Shown piece by piece: positions 42,347-48,283 of a stretch of DNA of 64,000 bases. Position numbers and translations under genes: made by a program. This DNA is from Streptacidiphilus melanogenes. GTDB taxonomy: Bacteria > Actinomycetota > Actinomycetes > Streptomycetales > Streptomycetaceae. The stretch is taken from the NCBI RefSeq assembly GCF_000787835.1, contig NZ_BBPP01000001.1, forward strand, positions 116,354-180,353. The letters run 5' to 3'. The notes beneath the pieces are model-generated. The model saw only the letters and a program-made list of their open reading frames with translations, did no database searches and was not told the DNA's origin. The stretch's first letter is position 1. The number at the start of each line of letters is the position of its first letter.

Positions 42347-45300
42347 CTACCCGAACGGCAGCGTTCCGAGCAGGGTCTCCGTGACGTCGGCCGCGTCCGC
42401 GGCGCCGATGCGGCGGTAGAGCTCCAGGGCCTGCCGGAGTTCGGTCTCCGCCCGGGCCGGATCACCGAGGGCGGCGTGCGCGCGGCCCAGGCCCTCCAGG
42501 GCACGGGCCTCCTCCAGGGGGCTGGGGACGCGGCGGGCCAACCGCCGTGCCTCCTCGTAGCAGGGCAGTGCCGCCTCCGGCCCGGAGACGTCCGAGCGCA
42601 GCGCGCCGGTGCTGTTGAGGACCTCCGCCTCGCCGTGGGGGTCGCCGAGGTCCCGGAAGAGGGCCTGCGCCTGGGCCAGCAGCTCCGCCGCCTCCGCCGT
42701 GCGGCCCTGCGCGTGCCGGGCCCGGCCGAGGTCGTGGCGGGCGTTCGCCTGGCCGTTGCGGTTGCCGGTGGTCTGGAAGATGGCGAGGGACTGTTCCTGC
42801 AGATCGGCTGCGCAGTCGACGTCGCCCGCGGCGAAGCGGACCCGCCCGAGGTCCCACTGGGAGCGGGCGACCGCCGACTCGACCGCCATGGCCCGGAACA
42901 GCAGCAGCGCGCGTTCGAAGAGGTCCGTCGCCGCGTCCAGCTCGCCGAGGTCCCGGTGGACGCGACCGAGCGTCTGGCAGGCGATGGCCTCGCCGAGCTG
43001 GTTGTCGATGGCGCGGAACGCGGCGAGTGCCTGTTCGCCCAGCTCGACCGCCGCGCGCATCTCGCCGCTCAGCTGGCGCACGCGCGCCAGATCACAGAGG
43101 ACGTGGCCCTCACCCCACCGTTTGCCCAGGGCGGCGTAGAGGCGCAGGGCGCGCTCGCCGCGCTCGCCGCCCCGCGCGAGGTCGCCGGTGAGCCGGTAGG
43201 CGCGGCCGAGTTGGAAGAGCGTGTTGGCCTGGCCCAGGTCGCTGCCGATCTCGCGGTAGAGCTCGAGGCACTGCTCGAGCAGCGGGGCGGCCGCCGCGTA
43301 GTCCCCTCGGTAGATGTGGACGGAGCCGCTCTCGTAGATCGCGTTCGCCTCGCCCAACTGCGAGCGCAGGGCGCGGTAGAGAGCGAGCGAGACGTCGTGG
43401 GCGCGCTGCGCGTCGGCGAAGTCGCCGCGCTGCATGTGGATCCGGCCCAGCTCGGTGAGGCACTCGGCCTGGCCGAGCCGGTCTCCGGAGGCGTCCGCGG
43501 CGTCGGCGCACTGCCGCAGGAGCTCCGCGGCGTCGGGCAGCGGGCCCTCCTGGTGCAGCAGCGGCGCAAGCGCCAGGGCCAGGGCGATACCGCCGCCGCG
43601 CCGGTGCGCGGACCGTCCGTCGACGCCCCCGTCAGCGCTCCCGCCGGTGACGGGGCCGGTCGCACCGTCGGAGATGGCGGACCGTGCCGAGGCCAGCAGG
43701 TTCTCGCGCTCGGCGCGCATCCAGGCCAGCGCCGACTCCTCGTCCCAGTCCGGCGCGTCCCCGCCGCCCCCGCCCGGCGCCGCCACCGCCCGCGGTGAGC
43801 GGCGCAGCAGCACGGCGGCCCGCTCGGCGCTGCGCACGTAGTGAGCCAGGAGCCGGTCGAGCGCCGTCTGGTGCTCGTCCGCCTCCCATCGCCGCGGCTC
43901 GCGGCAGTAGAGCCGGATCAGGTCGTGGAAGCCGTAGCGGCCGGGGACGTGCTGGATCAGCAGGTTCTGGTCGAGCAGCGAGTCGAGCGACTGCTCCGTG
44001 GCGAAGGCGTCCTCGTCGAGCAGGGCCGCGGCGGCGGTGGCGTCGACGTCCGCCCCGGGGATCAGGGCGAGCAGGGTGAGCAGGCGCTGCTCGGCGGCGG
44101 GCAGCGCGGTGAACGAGGTCGCGAACACCGCGCTGAGCCCCCGGTCCTCCAGCGCCTCCGAGGCGTCCGCCCCGTCCGTCGGAGAGCCGTCCGCGCTCAG
44201 CGTGGGCCGGTCCGGGCCGTTCGTACGCGGGGTGTCCGTGTCGGAGCCGTCCAGCTGGTCGAGCCGGGGGAGCCGGTGGTGCTCGTCGCGCAGGCGCTCC
44301 ACCAGGTCCGACAGCCGCAGTGACCGGCGTCGGCGCAGCTGTGCGGCCGCGATGCGCAGGGCCAGCGGTACGAAGCCGCACAGCTCGGCCAGTTCCCGTG
44401 CCTCGGGCTGATCCGAGGGGACCCGTTCCGCGCCCGCGACGCGGCGCAGCAGGGTCAGCGACTCGGGCTCGCTGAGCACCCGCAGCGACACGGCGTGCGA
44501 GTCGTCGAGCCCGGTCAGCCGCTTGCGGCTGGTCACCAGCACGAGGCAGCGCGAGGAGGCCGGGAGCAGCGGCCGGATCTGGGCGCTGCTGAGCGCGTTG
44601 TCGAGGACGATCAGCGTCCGGGTCCCGGCGAGACGGTCGCGGAGCTGCACCGCGCGCTCGGCCGGGTCCTTGGGGATCGTCTGCGGTGGCACGTCGAGTG
44701 AGCGCAGCAGCGCGTCGAGGGCCTCGGCGGTGCTCATCGGGGCGGCGTTGGGCGTCCAGCCGCGCAGGTCCAGGAAGAGCTGGCCGTCGGGGAAGTCCGC
44801 GCGCACCTGCTGCGCGACGTGGACGGCGAGGGCCGACTTACCGACCCCGGCCATGCCGTCGACGGCGGCGACCACGGCCCAGCCGGTCTCGTCGCCCTCC
44901 ACGGCCTGCCGGGCGCAGTCGAGCAGTCGCTGGACCTCTCCTTCGCGGCCGGTGAACGCGCGAGCCTCAGAGGGGAGTTGGCAGCGCGCCGATGGGATGG
45001 TGGGCGCGGCGCCGGTCTTCGCGGGGGAGGAGGCGGTCGGTGTGTCCGGAACGACCGGGGCGTCCTCGGCGAGGGCCTGGAGGTAGACCTCCTGCACGGC
45101 GGCGCCCGGGTCGACGCCCAACTCCTCGCTCAGGCGCAGCCGCAGGCGGCCGTAGACGTCGAGCGCCTCCGCCCGGCGGCCGTCGCGCAGCAGCGCGGTC
45201 ATCAGGTCGCGCTGCAGCTCCTCCGCGAGCGGGTGCTCCGCGGCCCAGCTGGTGAGCTCGGGGATGAGGTCGTGGTGGCGTCCGGACCGCAGCTCGGCCG

Positions 45301-45805
45301 CAGCCCGCCAGGAGCGCAGCTGGAGGCGGGAGTTCTCCAGCGCGTGCTGGAAGGTGTCGGCCGCGTCCGCCTCGGCCAGCGCGGGGAGGTCCTCCAACAG
45401 CCGTCCGCGCCAGAGCCGCAGGGCCAGCGCAGCCTCGCTGCTGACGGCCTCCCAGTCGCGCTCGACCCTGGCCAGCCGGGCGCCCTCGGCGCGGCGTTGG
45501 AACTCCTTGAGGTCCAACTCGTCCGGCTCCACCCGGATCAGGTAGCCGGAGGGGGTGGTGCGGATGCGGTCCTGCTCGGCCGGGCCGAAAAGGCCGCGCA
45601 GCCGGGCGACATGGTTCTGCAACGAGGCGCGCGCCGTCGGCGGCACGGCGTCGCCCCACAGCGCGTCGAGCAGGCCGTGCGTCGGCACCGTCTCGTTGGC
45701 GCGCAGCAGCAGCGCGCCGAGCAGCAGCCGTCCCTTGGGCGAGGTCAGCGGCACCGTGCCCGCCGCACCCTCGACCATGAGCGGCCCGAGCAGCCCGAAT
45801 CGCAT
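42347..45805 (-). CDS. AfsR/SARP-type regulator with NB-ARC and TPR domains
   Basis: 1152-residue regulator. Residues 1-90 are a winged-helix DNA-binding domain (SPKGRLLLGALLL, then SLQNHVARLRGLFG), residues 95-245 a bacterial transcriptional activation domain, residues 280-640 an NB-ARC ATPase with P-loop GMAGVGKS (317-324), and the remainder TPR-like repeats. AfsR-type proteins control secondary metabolism and development, often after phosphorylation by Ser/Thr kinases. No biosynthetic cluster or kinase is adjacent, so the target is unknown. The upstream region holds a perfect CCCCCGCGGGGG palindrome (45910-45921) and GGAATATTCC (45955-45964). Confidence 0.92.
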   Translation of the reverse strand: MRFGLLGPLMVEGAAGTVPLTSPKGRLLLGALLLRANETVPTHGLLDALWGDAVPPTARASLQNHVARLRGLFGPAEQDRIRTTPSGYLIRVEPDELDLKEFQRRAEGARLARVERDWEAVSSEAALALRLWRGRLLEDLPALAEADAADTFQHALENSRLQLRSWRAAAELRSGRHHDLIPELTSWAAEHPLAEELQRDLMTALLRDGRRAEALDVYGRLRLRLSEELGVDPGAAVQEVYLQALAEDAPVVPDTPTASSPAKTGAAPTIPSARCQLPSEARAFTGREGEVQRLLDCARQAVEGDETGWAVVAAVDGMAGVGKSALAVHVAQQVRADFPDGQLFLDLRGWTPNAAPMSTAEALDALLRSLDVPPQTIPKDPAERAVQLRDRLAGTRTLIVLDNALSSAQIRPLLPASSRCLVLVTSRKRLTGLDDSHAVSLRVLSEPESLTLLRRVAGAERVPSDQPEARELAELCGFVPLALRIAAAQLRRRRSLRLSDLVERLRDEHHRLPRLDQLDGSDTDTPRTNGPDRPTLSADGSPTDGADASEALEDRGLSAVFATSFTALPAAEQRLLTLLALIPGADVDATAAAALLDEDAFATEQSLDSLLDQNLLIQHVPGRYGFHDLIRLYCREPRRWEADEHQTALDRLLAHYVRSAERAAVLLRRSPRAVAAPGGGGGDAPDWDEESALAWMRAERENLLASARSAISDGATGPVTGGSADGGVDGRSAHRRGGGIALALALAPLLHQEGPLPDAAELLRQCADAADASGDRLGQAECLTELGRIHMQRGDFADAQRAHDVSLALYRALRSQLGEANAIYESGSVHIYRGDYAAAAPLLEQCLELYREIGSDLGQANTLFQLGRAYRLTGDLARGGERGERALRLYAALGKRWGEGHVLCDLARVRQLSGEMRAAVELGEQALAAFRAIDNQLGEAIACQTLGRVHRDLGELDAATDLFERALLLFRAMAVESAVARSQWDLGRVRFAAGDVDCAADLQEQSLAIFQTTGNRNGQANARHDLGRARHAQGRTAEAAELLAQAQALFRDLGDPHGEAEVLNSTGALRSDVSGPEAALPCYEEARRLARRVPSPLEEARALEGLGRAHAALGDPARAETELRQALELYRRIGAADAADVTETLLGTLPFG

Positions 45806-46246: not shown

Positions 46247-47428
46247 CTACTCGACGATCGTCTCGACCGCGCCGGCCGCCACGGTGCGACCGCCCTCGCG
46301 GACCGCGAAGCCGAGCCCCGGCTCCAGCGGCACGGCCTGACCGAGCGTCACCGTCATCTCGACCGTCTCGCCCGGGAGCGCGACCGCCACGTCCTGCGGC
46401 AGCAGCACGTCGCCGACGACGTCACCGGTCCGCAGGTAGAACTGCGGGCGGTAGCCGCTGGTGATGGGCGTGCGGCGGCCCCCGTCGGCGCCGGAGAGCA
46501 GGTGCACGCGGGCGGTGAACACCCGGTGCACCGAGGCGCTGCCCGCCGCCGCGACGACCATCCCGCGCCGGACCTGGCCGCGTTGGACGCCGCGCAGCAG
46601 CAGCGCGACGTTGTCGCCCGCCTCCGCGCTCTCCATGGTGCGGCCGAAGGTCTCCACACCGGTGACGACGGAGCCAAGCTCCGAGCCGTAGCCGAGGACG
46701 TCGATCCGGTCGCCCATGCGCACCGTGCCGCGCTCGACCGCACCGGTCACCACCGTGCCGCGGCCGGTGATGGTCAGCACGTTCTCGACGGGCATCAGGA
46801 ACGGCGCGTCGGTGTACCGGACGGGCGTGGGCACGTACGCGTCCACGGAGTCCAGCAGCTCCAGCAGCGCCGCCGACCAGGCCGGGTCGCCCTCCAGCGC
46901 CCGCAGCCCGGACACCCGCACGACGGGCAGCCCCGCGCCGTCGTAGCCGTGGGCGGTGAGCAGCTCGCGCACCTCCAGCTCGACCAGGTCCAGCAGCTCC
47001 GGGTCGCCGGCGTCGGCCTTGTTCAGCGCGACGACGACGTGCTCGACACCGACCTGCCGGGCCAGCAGCACGTGCTCGGAGGTCTGCGGCATGACTCCGT
47101 CCTGCGCGGAGACCACGAGGATGGCGCCGTCCAGCTGGGCCGCACCGGTGATCATGTTCTTCACGAAGTCGGCGTGGCCGGGCATGTCGACGTGGGCGTA
47201 GTGCCGGGTGGCCGTCTCGTACTCGACGTGCGCGATGTTGATGGTGATGCCGCGGGCGGCCTCCTCCGGGGCGCGGTCGATCCGGTCGAACGGCACGAAG
47301 GCGGCGCCGCCGTGCTCGGCCAGCACCTTGGTGATGGCGGCGGTGAGGGTGGTCTTGCCGTGGTCGACGTGACCCATGGTGCCGATGTTGAGGTGCGGCT
47401 TGGTCCGCACGAAGGCCTGCTTGGCCAT
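46247..47428 (-). CDS. tuf: Divergent elongation factor Tu (second-type, Tuf3-like)
   Basis: 393-residue GTPase delivering aminoacyl-tRNA to ribosomes. It has G1 [11 protein letters not shown], effector segment [13 protein letters not shown]3 [11 protein letters not shown] (the usual Cys is Met) and G4 NKADAGDP, which differs from the usual NKCD. Length and C-terminus ([12 protein letters not shown]) are normal. Its solitary context, without rpsL/rpsG/fusA, and its many substitutions mark it as a second EF-Tu like Tuf3 of Streptomyces, which is known as a minor, growth-condition-dependent copy. The leader contains a predicted pseudoknot (47461-47526); GGAGAAG is the likely Shine-Dalgarno. Confidence 0.92.
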
Positions 47429-47460
47429 GACGCTTCTCTTCTCCGGGGGTTCGCTCCTGA

Positions 47461-47526
47461 CGGGACCTCAAAGGCGGGGCCGACCTTCCCCGGCAGAGGT
47501 CCCGGGGGATCGACCCGGGGAAGGTC
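47461..47526 (-). promoter_or_regulatory. Predicted H-type pseudoknot in the EF-Tu mRNA leader
   Basis: On the minus strand, stem 1 pairs 47526-47515 with 47493-47482 (12 bp, perfect) and stem 2 pairs 47504-47496 with 47469-47461 (9 bp, perfect). Loops are 10, 2 and 12 nt, which is sterically possible for an H-type pseudoknot; each stem's second arm lies outside the other stem, so they interlock. It ends 32 nt before the EF-Tu ATG and 17 nt before its Shine-Dalgarno. A role in transcription attenuation or translation control is inferred. Confidence 0.55.
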
Positions 47527-47674
47527 AGCTTCGCGCGCCGCCGAACGCGGCAGCACCTGCGAGTGCCAGTGCGCCTGCGTCTGCGTGTGCGGCGGTCGCC
47601 GCCGTCAGGGCAGCAGCCATCGCGCCCGCGAGTGCGGGGAACTGGGCGATGGCGACCGGGAACATGCGCACCAT
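47525..47674 (-). CDS. Possible 49-residue Ala-rich leader ORF upstream of EF-Tu
   Basis: ATG-initiated frame of 49 codons, hydrophobic and Ala-rich, ending with TGA at 47527-47525, inside the first arm of the predicted pseudoknot. Codon use is unlike the surroundings, with many GCA codons, and the ribosome-binding site (GGACGG) is weak. It could be a leader peptide or a chance frame; no homologue recognised. Confidence 0.3.
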   Translation of the reverse strand: MVRMFPVAIAQFPALAGAMAAALTAATAAHADAGALALAGAAAFGGARS

Positions 47675-47731
47675 CGTGCCGTCCGGCGACGGCTCGCCGC
47701 CAACGGTTTTCGGGCTGGCTATTCTGAGGAC

Positions 47732-48283
47732 ATGACCTACCAGGGCGACGAGGAGCGGGAGATCCTGCGCCTGTGGGACGAGCTGGAGCTGCCGGGCGGA
47801 GCCTGGGCGGAGCTGCTCGACTCGCAGATCGTGATGCAGGCGAACCCCACCCACCTGCACGACGTCCCCGGCCGGGTCTTCGTGCGCACGACGCCCGAGC
47901 CGTTCCAGGCGTTCTCCGAGCGCGGCATCGACATCGGCCCCACCGACAAGCCGCGCCCCGACGTAGCGATCGCCCACGGCGACGACATCCCGGAGGACGT
48001 CCGCGACTGGCCGGCCGCGATCGTCCGGGCAGTGGTCGAGACGGTGGGTGCGGGGCGCGGGGCGGCCAGGCGTGACTACGAGGACAAGCGCGCGGCCTAC
48101 GAGCGCGCGGGCATCCCGGTCTACGTGATCGTCGACCCGCGCGACGGGACCTGGCTGGTCCTGCGTCTCGTCGACGGCGTCTACGCCGAGCACGCCAAGG
48201 GCGTCTTCGGGCAGCCCATCCCGCTGCCCGAACAGCTCGGCTTCCCGATTCCCACGGTGGCCTTCCACCCGTACCCCGCCTGA
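47732..48283 (+). CDS. Uma2 family (PD-(D/E)xK-like) protein
   Basis: 183-residue protein of the DUF820/Uma2 family, which has a restriction-endonuclease-like fold. The putative catalytic residues are Asp in KPRPDVAI, Glu in VVETVGAG and Lys in [15 protein letters not shown]. Many such genes occur in Streptomyces; their role is unproven. GAGGAC precedes the ATG, with a TATTCT -10-like element 7 bp upstream. It is divergent from the EF-Tu leader region. Confidence 0.78.

Follow-up and report, generated by a model that had tools for sequence, protein, structure and literature searches.

The DNA ahead of the second EF-Tu gene of Streptacidiphilus melanogenes raises the question of what a leader RNA does there, and whether it ties synthesis of the protein to the state of translation. 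The gene, tuf3, lies in a window of 64,000 nt (the whole stretch of DNA analyzed), and its divergent product is 60% identical to the other EF-Tu of the same genome. In S. coelicolor tuf3 is described as WblC-activated (PMC7157823); older work cited in PMC12309360 is quoted for expression of tuf3 under stress only and for a GE2270A-resistant product. A first-pass annotation of the window had described two interlocking stems and a 49-codon Ala-rich frame between positions 47674 and 47461; the features as they now stand are collected in Table 1. A large AfsR/SARP-like TPR regulator adjoins tuf3 (42347-45805, minus strand; 539 bits, with an AfsR cut-off of 1430).

Table 1. Features of the tuf3 locus, numbered by position in the window
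Feature	Position	Strand	Basis or remark
tuf3	46247..47428	-	393 aa divergent second EF-Tu; NCBIfam TIGR00485, 567.5 bits, cut-off 522.4
tuf3 Shine-Dalgarno GGAG	47441..47444	-	by sequence
GAAAAC box, WblC/WhiB7-type (consensus GAAAWY)	47706..47711	-	sequence match
-35-like TGGCGG, 3 bp past box (consensus TKGMNN)	47697..47702	-	inferred from published consensus
-10-like CACGAT, 18-bp spacer (consensus TANNNT)	47673..47678	-	inferred
Predicted transcription start, 7-8 bp past -10	47665..47666	-	predicted; A of leader ATG at 47665
Leaderless leader frame (uORF), 46 codons + UGA	47525..47665	-	frame comparison across loci
Hairpin P1, within leader frame	47616..47653	-	47653-47646 with 47623-47616; 47638-47634 with 47629-47625
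Conserved leader-frame end GGC GCN CGA AGC, with rare CGA codon	47528..47539	-	frame comparison
Stem 1 5' arm, contains UGA stop	47515..47529	-	pairing and covariation
Stem 1 3' arm	47479..47493	-	pairing and covariation
Loop-1 hairpin CCCGGG/CCCGGG	47501..47519	-	47519-47514 with 47506-47501; overlaps stem 1 top and stem 2 start
Stem 2 5' arm	47496..47504	-	pairing and covariation
Stem 2 3' arm	47461..47469	-	pairing and covariation

WblC-activated promoters of S. coelicolor feature GAAAWY, 3 bp, TKGMNN, a spacer of 16-19 bp and TANNNT, with transcription starting mostly 7-8 bp further on (PMC7157823). The window follows this layout in its box, its -35-like element (set apart from the box by CGT), its spacer and the distance of the predicted start, with 8 bp between CACGAT and the A of the ATG at 47665; CACGAT departs from TANNNT in lacking the first T, and the strongest WblC promoters show less T at that position (PMC7157823). 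Since the predicted start coincides with the leader ATG the frame should be leaderless, and the sequence thus predicts a WblC/WhiB7-type promoter with a leaderless frame start at 47665. The frame first drawn at 47674-47525 keeps its reading phase and its stop in stem 1, but not its start: the ATG at 47674 overlaps the -10-like element and the conserved ATG is the one at 47665, leaving 46 codons. The frame was read in 111 loci, which are related and not independent; GAAAW[CTG] stands 44-46 nt ahead of its start in 83 of them, as against 80 of 5550 random 50-nt stretches, and thirteen re-read loci display TAAA or TAAT forms at the box position. That all 111 frames run into the stem-1 stop is partly built in, so the proper test is given by ATGs picked solely by their distance from the box; 80 such candidates occur in the 111 loci, and all 80 are open and in frame with the stop. 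A conserved leader frame ending in stem 1 is well supported by these comparisons, with 29 different lengths between 28 and 81 codons among 98 frames. In L039 the Ala-rich middle seems, by eye, to have lengthened through repetition of the conserved end, as AFDGA modules.

The two interlocking stems lie where they were originally placed, with loops of 10, 2 and 12 nt. Stem 1 contains the 12 pairs first given but extends to 15 (47529-47515 with 47493-47479, one of them U·G), so that the stop codon, rightly located in the first arm, is enclosed as an entire UGA (47527-47525); stem 2 ends at 47461 as described, with 16 nt rather than 17 to the GGAG of the tuf3 Shine-Dalgarno. Once stem 1 is counted as 15 pairs loop 3 is left with 9 nt, which is short for such a stem, and the bottom pairs may therefore be open. 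The loop-1 hairpin can compete with both the top of stem 1 and the beginning of stem 2. Of 90 elements, 86 allow a stem of 4 or more pairs around loop 1, a count that takes the best stem in each and has no null model. Loop 3 measures 7-16 nt in 15 of 17 clade representatives and is longer in L208 (39 nt) and L312 (28 nt); the stop codon of L314 occupies the far end of its arm of stem 1.

Interlocking stems of 12 and 9 pairs occur once on this strand of the window, compared with a mean of 0.017 per 64-kb strand in 60 first-order Markov simulations. A sequence-blind knot finder applied to the 230 nt upstream of tuf3 gives a score of 65, the maximum among 60 dinucleotide shuffles being 51. Across 23 upstream regions of tuf3-type genes (that of the window included) the same knot is the best in 17, of which 15 have no shuffle among 60 scoring as high (L188 has one and L211 two); a different knot is best in L180, L189, L194, L195, L208 and L312. 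The control region upstream of EF-Tu1 in the window genome (L002) yields an unrelated knot with a 28-nt loop 3 and a score of 47, reached by 2 of 60 shuffles, and that upstream of the EF-Tu1 of L317 scores 37, reached by 7 of 60; given these control scores, the knot finder by itself cannot separate weak cases from controls.

The first-pass annotation had named a lack of conservation or of compensatory change in either stem as grounds for giving up the structure; both are present in both stems. Alignment A5 comprises 93 elements from Streptomycetaceae, 86 of them distinct; it is cut at the fitted end, and a row shifted by one base is scored as unpaired. In it 97.0% of cells are paired, 98.7% in stem 1 and 93.7% in stem 2, where the shifted rows are scored as breaks. 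Changes on both sides are seen at 5 pairs and in 52 cells, compared with 13.8 cells in shuffles (none of 500 as high), and the number of double-change cells falls to 1-11 once the arms are slid. Two of the five covariation measures applied to A5 are weak: the number of pairs with a change on both sides is matched by 17 of 500 shuffles, and further pair types show no excess over shuffles in this alignment (374 of 500 as high). RNAalifold alone finds stem 1. Wider divergence was covered with 17 hand-picked clade representatives whose arms were chosen for best pairing, which makes the following figures fitted and descriptive: stem 2 is paired throughout, stem 1 has a single unpaired cell, the first eight positions of stem 2 display 2-5 pair types each, and stem 2 is compensated in 133 of 136 clade pairs. 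Arms with exact partners include CGGGACCTC, GAGCCCC, GGTGACCCG, GAGAACC and GGGAACCCAC; such variety is hard to explain other than by a constraint on pairing. With arms again picked for best pairing, so that the percentages are fitted ones, and three loci with no arm pattern omitted, 90 of 90 observed stem-2 arms reach 7 or 8 of 8 pairs, as do 13.5% of shuffled-arm fits. Two interlocking stems, each with compensatory change, are what characterizes an H-type pseudoknot, and a conserved interlocking fold as the core of the leader is well supported by this pairing evidence.

The distribution of the leader follows that of tuf3. A DNA search locates it in 11 of the 14 genomes of the genus, in each of which EF-Tu starts 98-146 nt past the frame stop. 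A covariance model built from these 11 elements detects the leader at E 0.01 in at least 265 of 394 Streptomycetaceae genomes and 8 of 17 genera, a lower bound set by strict filters; 98 of these loci were read, and 93 have EF-Tu directly downstream. A second model, made from 93 Streptomycetaceae elements, has matches in 199 of the 245 genomes covered for the order and in 43 of 394 for the class; of the latter, 12 lie outside the order, 10 of them with EF-Tu downstream and two (L185 and L187) false. Within the order, four genomes from a second family also carry the leader, and at least six actinomycete families are represented (f1, f3, f6, f19, f20 and f28). Weak model matches with no EF-Tu were dropped on reading (L068, L076-L078, L185, L187 and L196-L202), as was L075, the second copy in G101, an orphan leader with neither EF-Tu downstream nor a GAAAAC box just ahead of the frame, which looks like a decaying duplicate.

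The matches listed for 296 genomes of the class comprise 34 tuf3-type genes at 67-100% identity, the rest, at 63% or less, being taken as housekeeping EF-Tu; the leader precedes all 34, in 29 cases by model and in five by eye. Carriers found by model include Streptomyces nigrescens, S. dysideae, S. pseudovenezuelae, Actinophytocola gossypii and Nocardia sp. CC227C; those recognized by eye include Nonomuraea gerenzanensis, Streptomyces sp. BHT-5-2, and Actinoplanes sp. NBRC 103695 and Actinomadura hibisca, for which the model gave E 0.85 and no match. Conversely, all 19 Streptomycetaceae genomes judged to have no leader (14 by the second model, five by the first) also have no tuf3, their EF-Tu proteins all being 59-61% identical; the 20 EF-Tu loci of these genomes give no model match below E 0.42, and EF-Tu1 of the window genome none below E 1. 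The proposal that the leader belongs to a divergent second EF-Tu gene is borne out by this two-way agreement among the genomes compared, and the link between leader and tuf3 is considered well supported at the sequence level.

Several loci depart from the common arrangement. Three Streptomyces leaders (L188, L189 and L191, from G145, G052 and G268) have a GTG start and precede a very divergent EF-Tu-like gene, 39-47% identical over approximately the first 200 residues; the EF-Tu-like frame of L188 stops after ~200 residues, like a lone G domain. The leader of L063 (G300) precedes an EF-Tu just 54% identical to that of the window over residues 1-391. In other families, the leaders of L203 (Nocardia sp. 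CC227C) and L181 (G735, family f6) accompany EF-Tu proteins 83-85% identical to that of the window; identity at this level across families suggests horizontal transfer of the whole cassette of tuf3 and leader.

The codons of the frame are unusual for the gene they precede. In the middle of the frame, 3 to 56 codons long after setting aside the first 20 and last 5, GCA makes up 213 of 567 Ala codons (37.6%) in 98 pooled frames, as against 63 of 4006 (1.6%) in tuf3. Other fourfold codons there end in A in 14 of 531 cases (2.6%, compared with 1.6% in tuf3), so the excess of GCA is not a general preference for A. The bias is present in clades g1, g3, g14, g6, g9, g16/g13/g7, f3 and f6; counted over the whole frame, it is missing or almost missing in f20 (1 of 49), f19 (1 of 15) and the loci with a divergent EF-Tu (0 of 31), and f28 and g17 offer too few cases to judge. 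In 96 of the 98 frames the penultimate codon is CGA, which accounts for 1.1% of the Arg codons of tuf3. This usage points to decoding speed, tRNA supply or an unseen RNA constraint.

The first ~60 nt of the frame fold as a hairpin, P1, beginning ~8-12 nt past the ATG in most of 42 singly folded sequences (the fold of L209 is weak). Aligned across 42 loci, the apical stem of P1 includes one position that shows all four Watson-Crick pairs with zero exceptions, two that covary partly (11 and 6 of 42 cells broken) and four that are invariant. Over 56 frames P1 exceeds its synonymous recodings in stability (mean z -2.42, with 47 frames below -1.5), and in 21 of the 56 frames none of 60 recodings is as stable. 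It might be supposed that what is conserved is a small protein, functional or arresting, encoded by the frame, and that the RNA folds are secondary, as the frame is conserved and keeps its end G-A-R-S/R with a free third base in the Ala codon. This is thought improbable: differences in P1 between clades alter residues and yet preserve the hairpin, the frame middle is highly variable in length, and stem 2 covaries though it lies outside the frame.

Taken with the published regulation of tuf3, the arrangement is fairly probably that of a cis-acting, ribosome-gated leader, in which WblC, a leaderless uORF and a knot that acts as the ON state on transcription or RNA survival together raise tuf3 under translation stress. 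Transcription would begin at the leader ATG from the WblC/WhiB7-type promoter; a ribosome completing the frame would have to open stem 1, and one stalled farther upstream would leave the knot able to form. Such stalling may be caused by a bound drug, by too little EF-Tu function or, in GCA-rich frames, by scarcity of the tRNA that reads this rare Ala codon. The formed knot would favor transcription or RNA survival rather than mask the tuf3 ribosome site; translation stress would then lift tuf3 twice, through WblC and through the leader. We infer the ribosome's role as the switch of the knot, the sign of the effect and the output step.

The sign is where the closest rival differs. The knot may instead be the OFF state, blocking RNA polymerase or ribosomes until finished translation of the frame opens it, which would tie EF-Tu3 to active translation. 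The geometry lends itself to this, as a stop codon in stem 1 means that completed translation opens the knot, the blocking step being assumed; the stress-only expression of tuf3 (PMC12309360) and its activation by WblC (PMC7157823) are the opposite of coupling to good translation, and they favor the knot as ON. A stop-to-tuf3 distance of 84 to 198 nt in 104 loci (275 nt in L063) also speaks against simple masking of the ribosome site, and the OFF reading is regarded as unlikely. The same distance takes each of the three reading phases (in 44, 32 and 28 of the 104 loci), which leads to rejection of programmed frameshifting at the knot to give a fusion with EF-Tu. Pseudoknots close to the end of a frame can stimulate frameshifting, and the idea retains almost no probability here.

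For the preferred reading, in which the knot is ON, the output step is narrowed by what surrounds the fold. The tuf3 ribosome site lies outside it at a variable distance, and Shine-Dalgarno hiding is judged unlikely from this spacing. No terminator is found in the window at 47380-47760, and terminator-like sites between stop and tuf3 are not conserved, being present in 2 of the 104 loci, or in 9 if the T count is relaxed. With the ribosome site outside the fold, the spacing variable and no conserved terminator found, the output would be set at Rho-dependent termination, polymerase pausing or RNA stability. No conserved alternative pairing is seen by eye; pairings of the P1 3' strand with the stem-1 arms, and of the stem-2 5' arm with the stem-1 3' arm, are lost in distant clades such as f20. 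A two-state switch would thus depend on the ribosome alone. One refinement of the ON model, compatible with it and tentatively held to be a less probable addition, is Rho control, whereby the C-rich arms would let Rho load while stem 1 is open and would be hidden by the knot. It draws on the C-rich stem-1 5' arms of the 17 representatives and on the absence of a conserved U-run terminator; in addition, Rho and uORFs reportedly shape early termination in Mycobacterium tuberculosis, to go by the title of one study. The exposed stretch would be short, and the knot would refold once the ribosome is released.

A metabolite or ppGpp might be the ligand instead of the ribosome. Several riboswitches are H-type pseudoknots, and tuf3 is said, in the title of a 1995 study by van Wezel, to be under apparent positive stringent control. 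The loops of the present knot are variable, the sole conserved unpaired run, GGCGCNCGAMGC, sits before the knot and inside the frame, and Rfam offers no match; a riboswitch of this kind is considered very improbable.

That no regulatory RNA of such a kind had been described, as was initially stated, agrees with the databases and literature consulted. At gathering thresholds Rfam gives zero matches in the whole 64-kb window; at E up to 1 the region 47380-47760 gives mir-1001 alone (E 0.35, 19.4 bits, gathering 100), which is unconvincing, and at E up to 0.5 six loci give none. A description of the leader was not found in the literature, with subscription papers, including the primary ones on tuf3 and on the wblC leader, among those that might contain one; a term search of the main text of four surveys (PMC2864571, PMC8914203, PMC4895711 and PMC3765725) finds tuf3 or an EF-Tu gene unnamed.

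The nearest known systems share parts of the arrangement. The LEU element of actinobacterial leuA likewise combines a leader peptide with a conserved pseudoknot in an actinobacterial leader, but is described with a run of Leu codons that pairs with the leuA Shine-Dalgarno and with a proposed alternative hairpin; its authors argue that the Leu codons do not work as classical attenuation and suggest a binding protein (PMC1262725). The tuf3 leader differs from it in the stop within stem 1, the Ala/GCA frame and the gene served; in a single-sequence fold of the window leader no LEU-like base stem between a codon run and the Shine-Dalgarno is seen. The uORF attenuators of whiB7 and wblC match it in the kind of stress and promoter, in having a uORF upstream of the gene, and in a frame whose translation sets the RNA fold; they are reported to use a Rho-independent terminator and anti-terminator (PMC11550727, PMC10727445), in place of which the tuf3 leader has a pseudoknot and no conserved terminator. 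The uORF attenuator of wblC itself is described as forming the terminator upon full translation (PMC11550727). ARE-ABCF attenuation also places a uORF upstream of a translation-protection gene in Streptomyces, according to PMC12421871, with frames of 3 to 9 codons, ribosome stalling at the start codon and terminator/anti-terminator folds of its own. Classical attenuators (trp, ilv and leuS, PMC1262725; ilvB1, PMC13236596) resemble it in being described with a frame enriched for one amino acid or group, whereas the tuf3 leader has no Ala-biosynthesis gene downstream and no conserved terminator, and its bias is not found in all clades. The tuf3 leader is accordingly filed as a variant of uORF-dependent leaders, and as neither a LEU element nor a whiB7/wblC attenuator.

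It is possible, though held at less than even confidence, that the leader represents a new class of actinomycete regulatory RNA, in which a leaderless rare-codon uORF has its stop in a pseudoknot, the ribosome acts as the ligand, EF-Tu function or the availability of GCA-reading tRNA is sensed, and a drug-resistant EF-Tu is controlled with no terminator hairpin. What is found is a widespread RNA element with a stop codon built into a pseudoknot, situated ahead of all tuf3-type genes listed and not found at the housekeeping EF-Tu loci tested; the leader would provide a testable account of how a backup EF-Tu is induced when translation fails.
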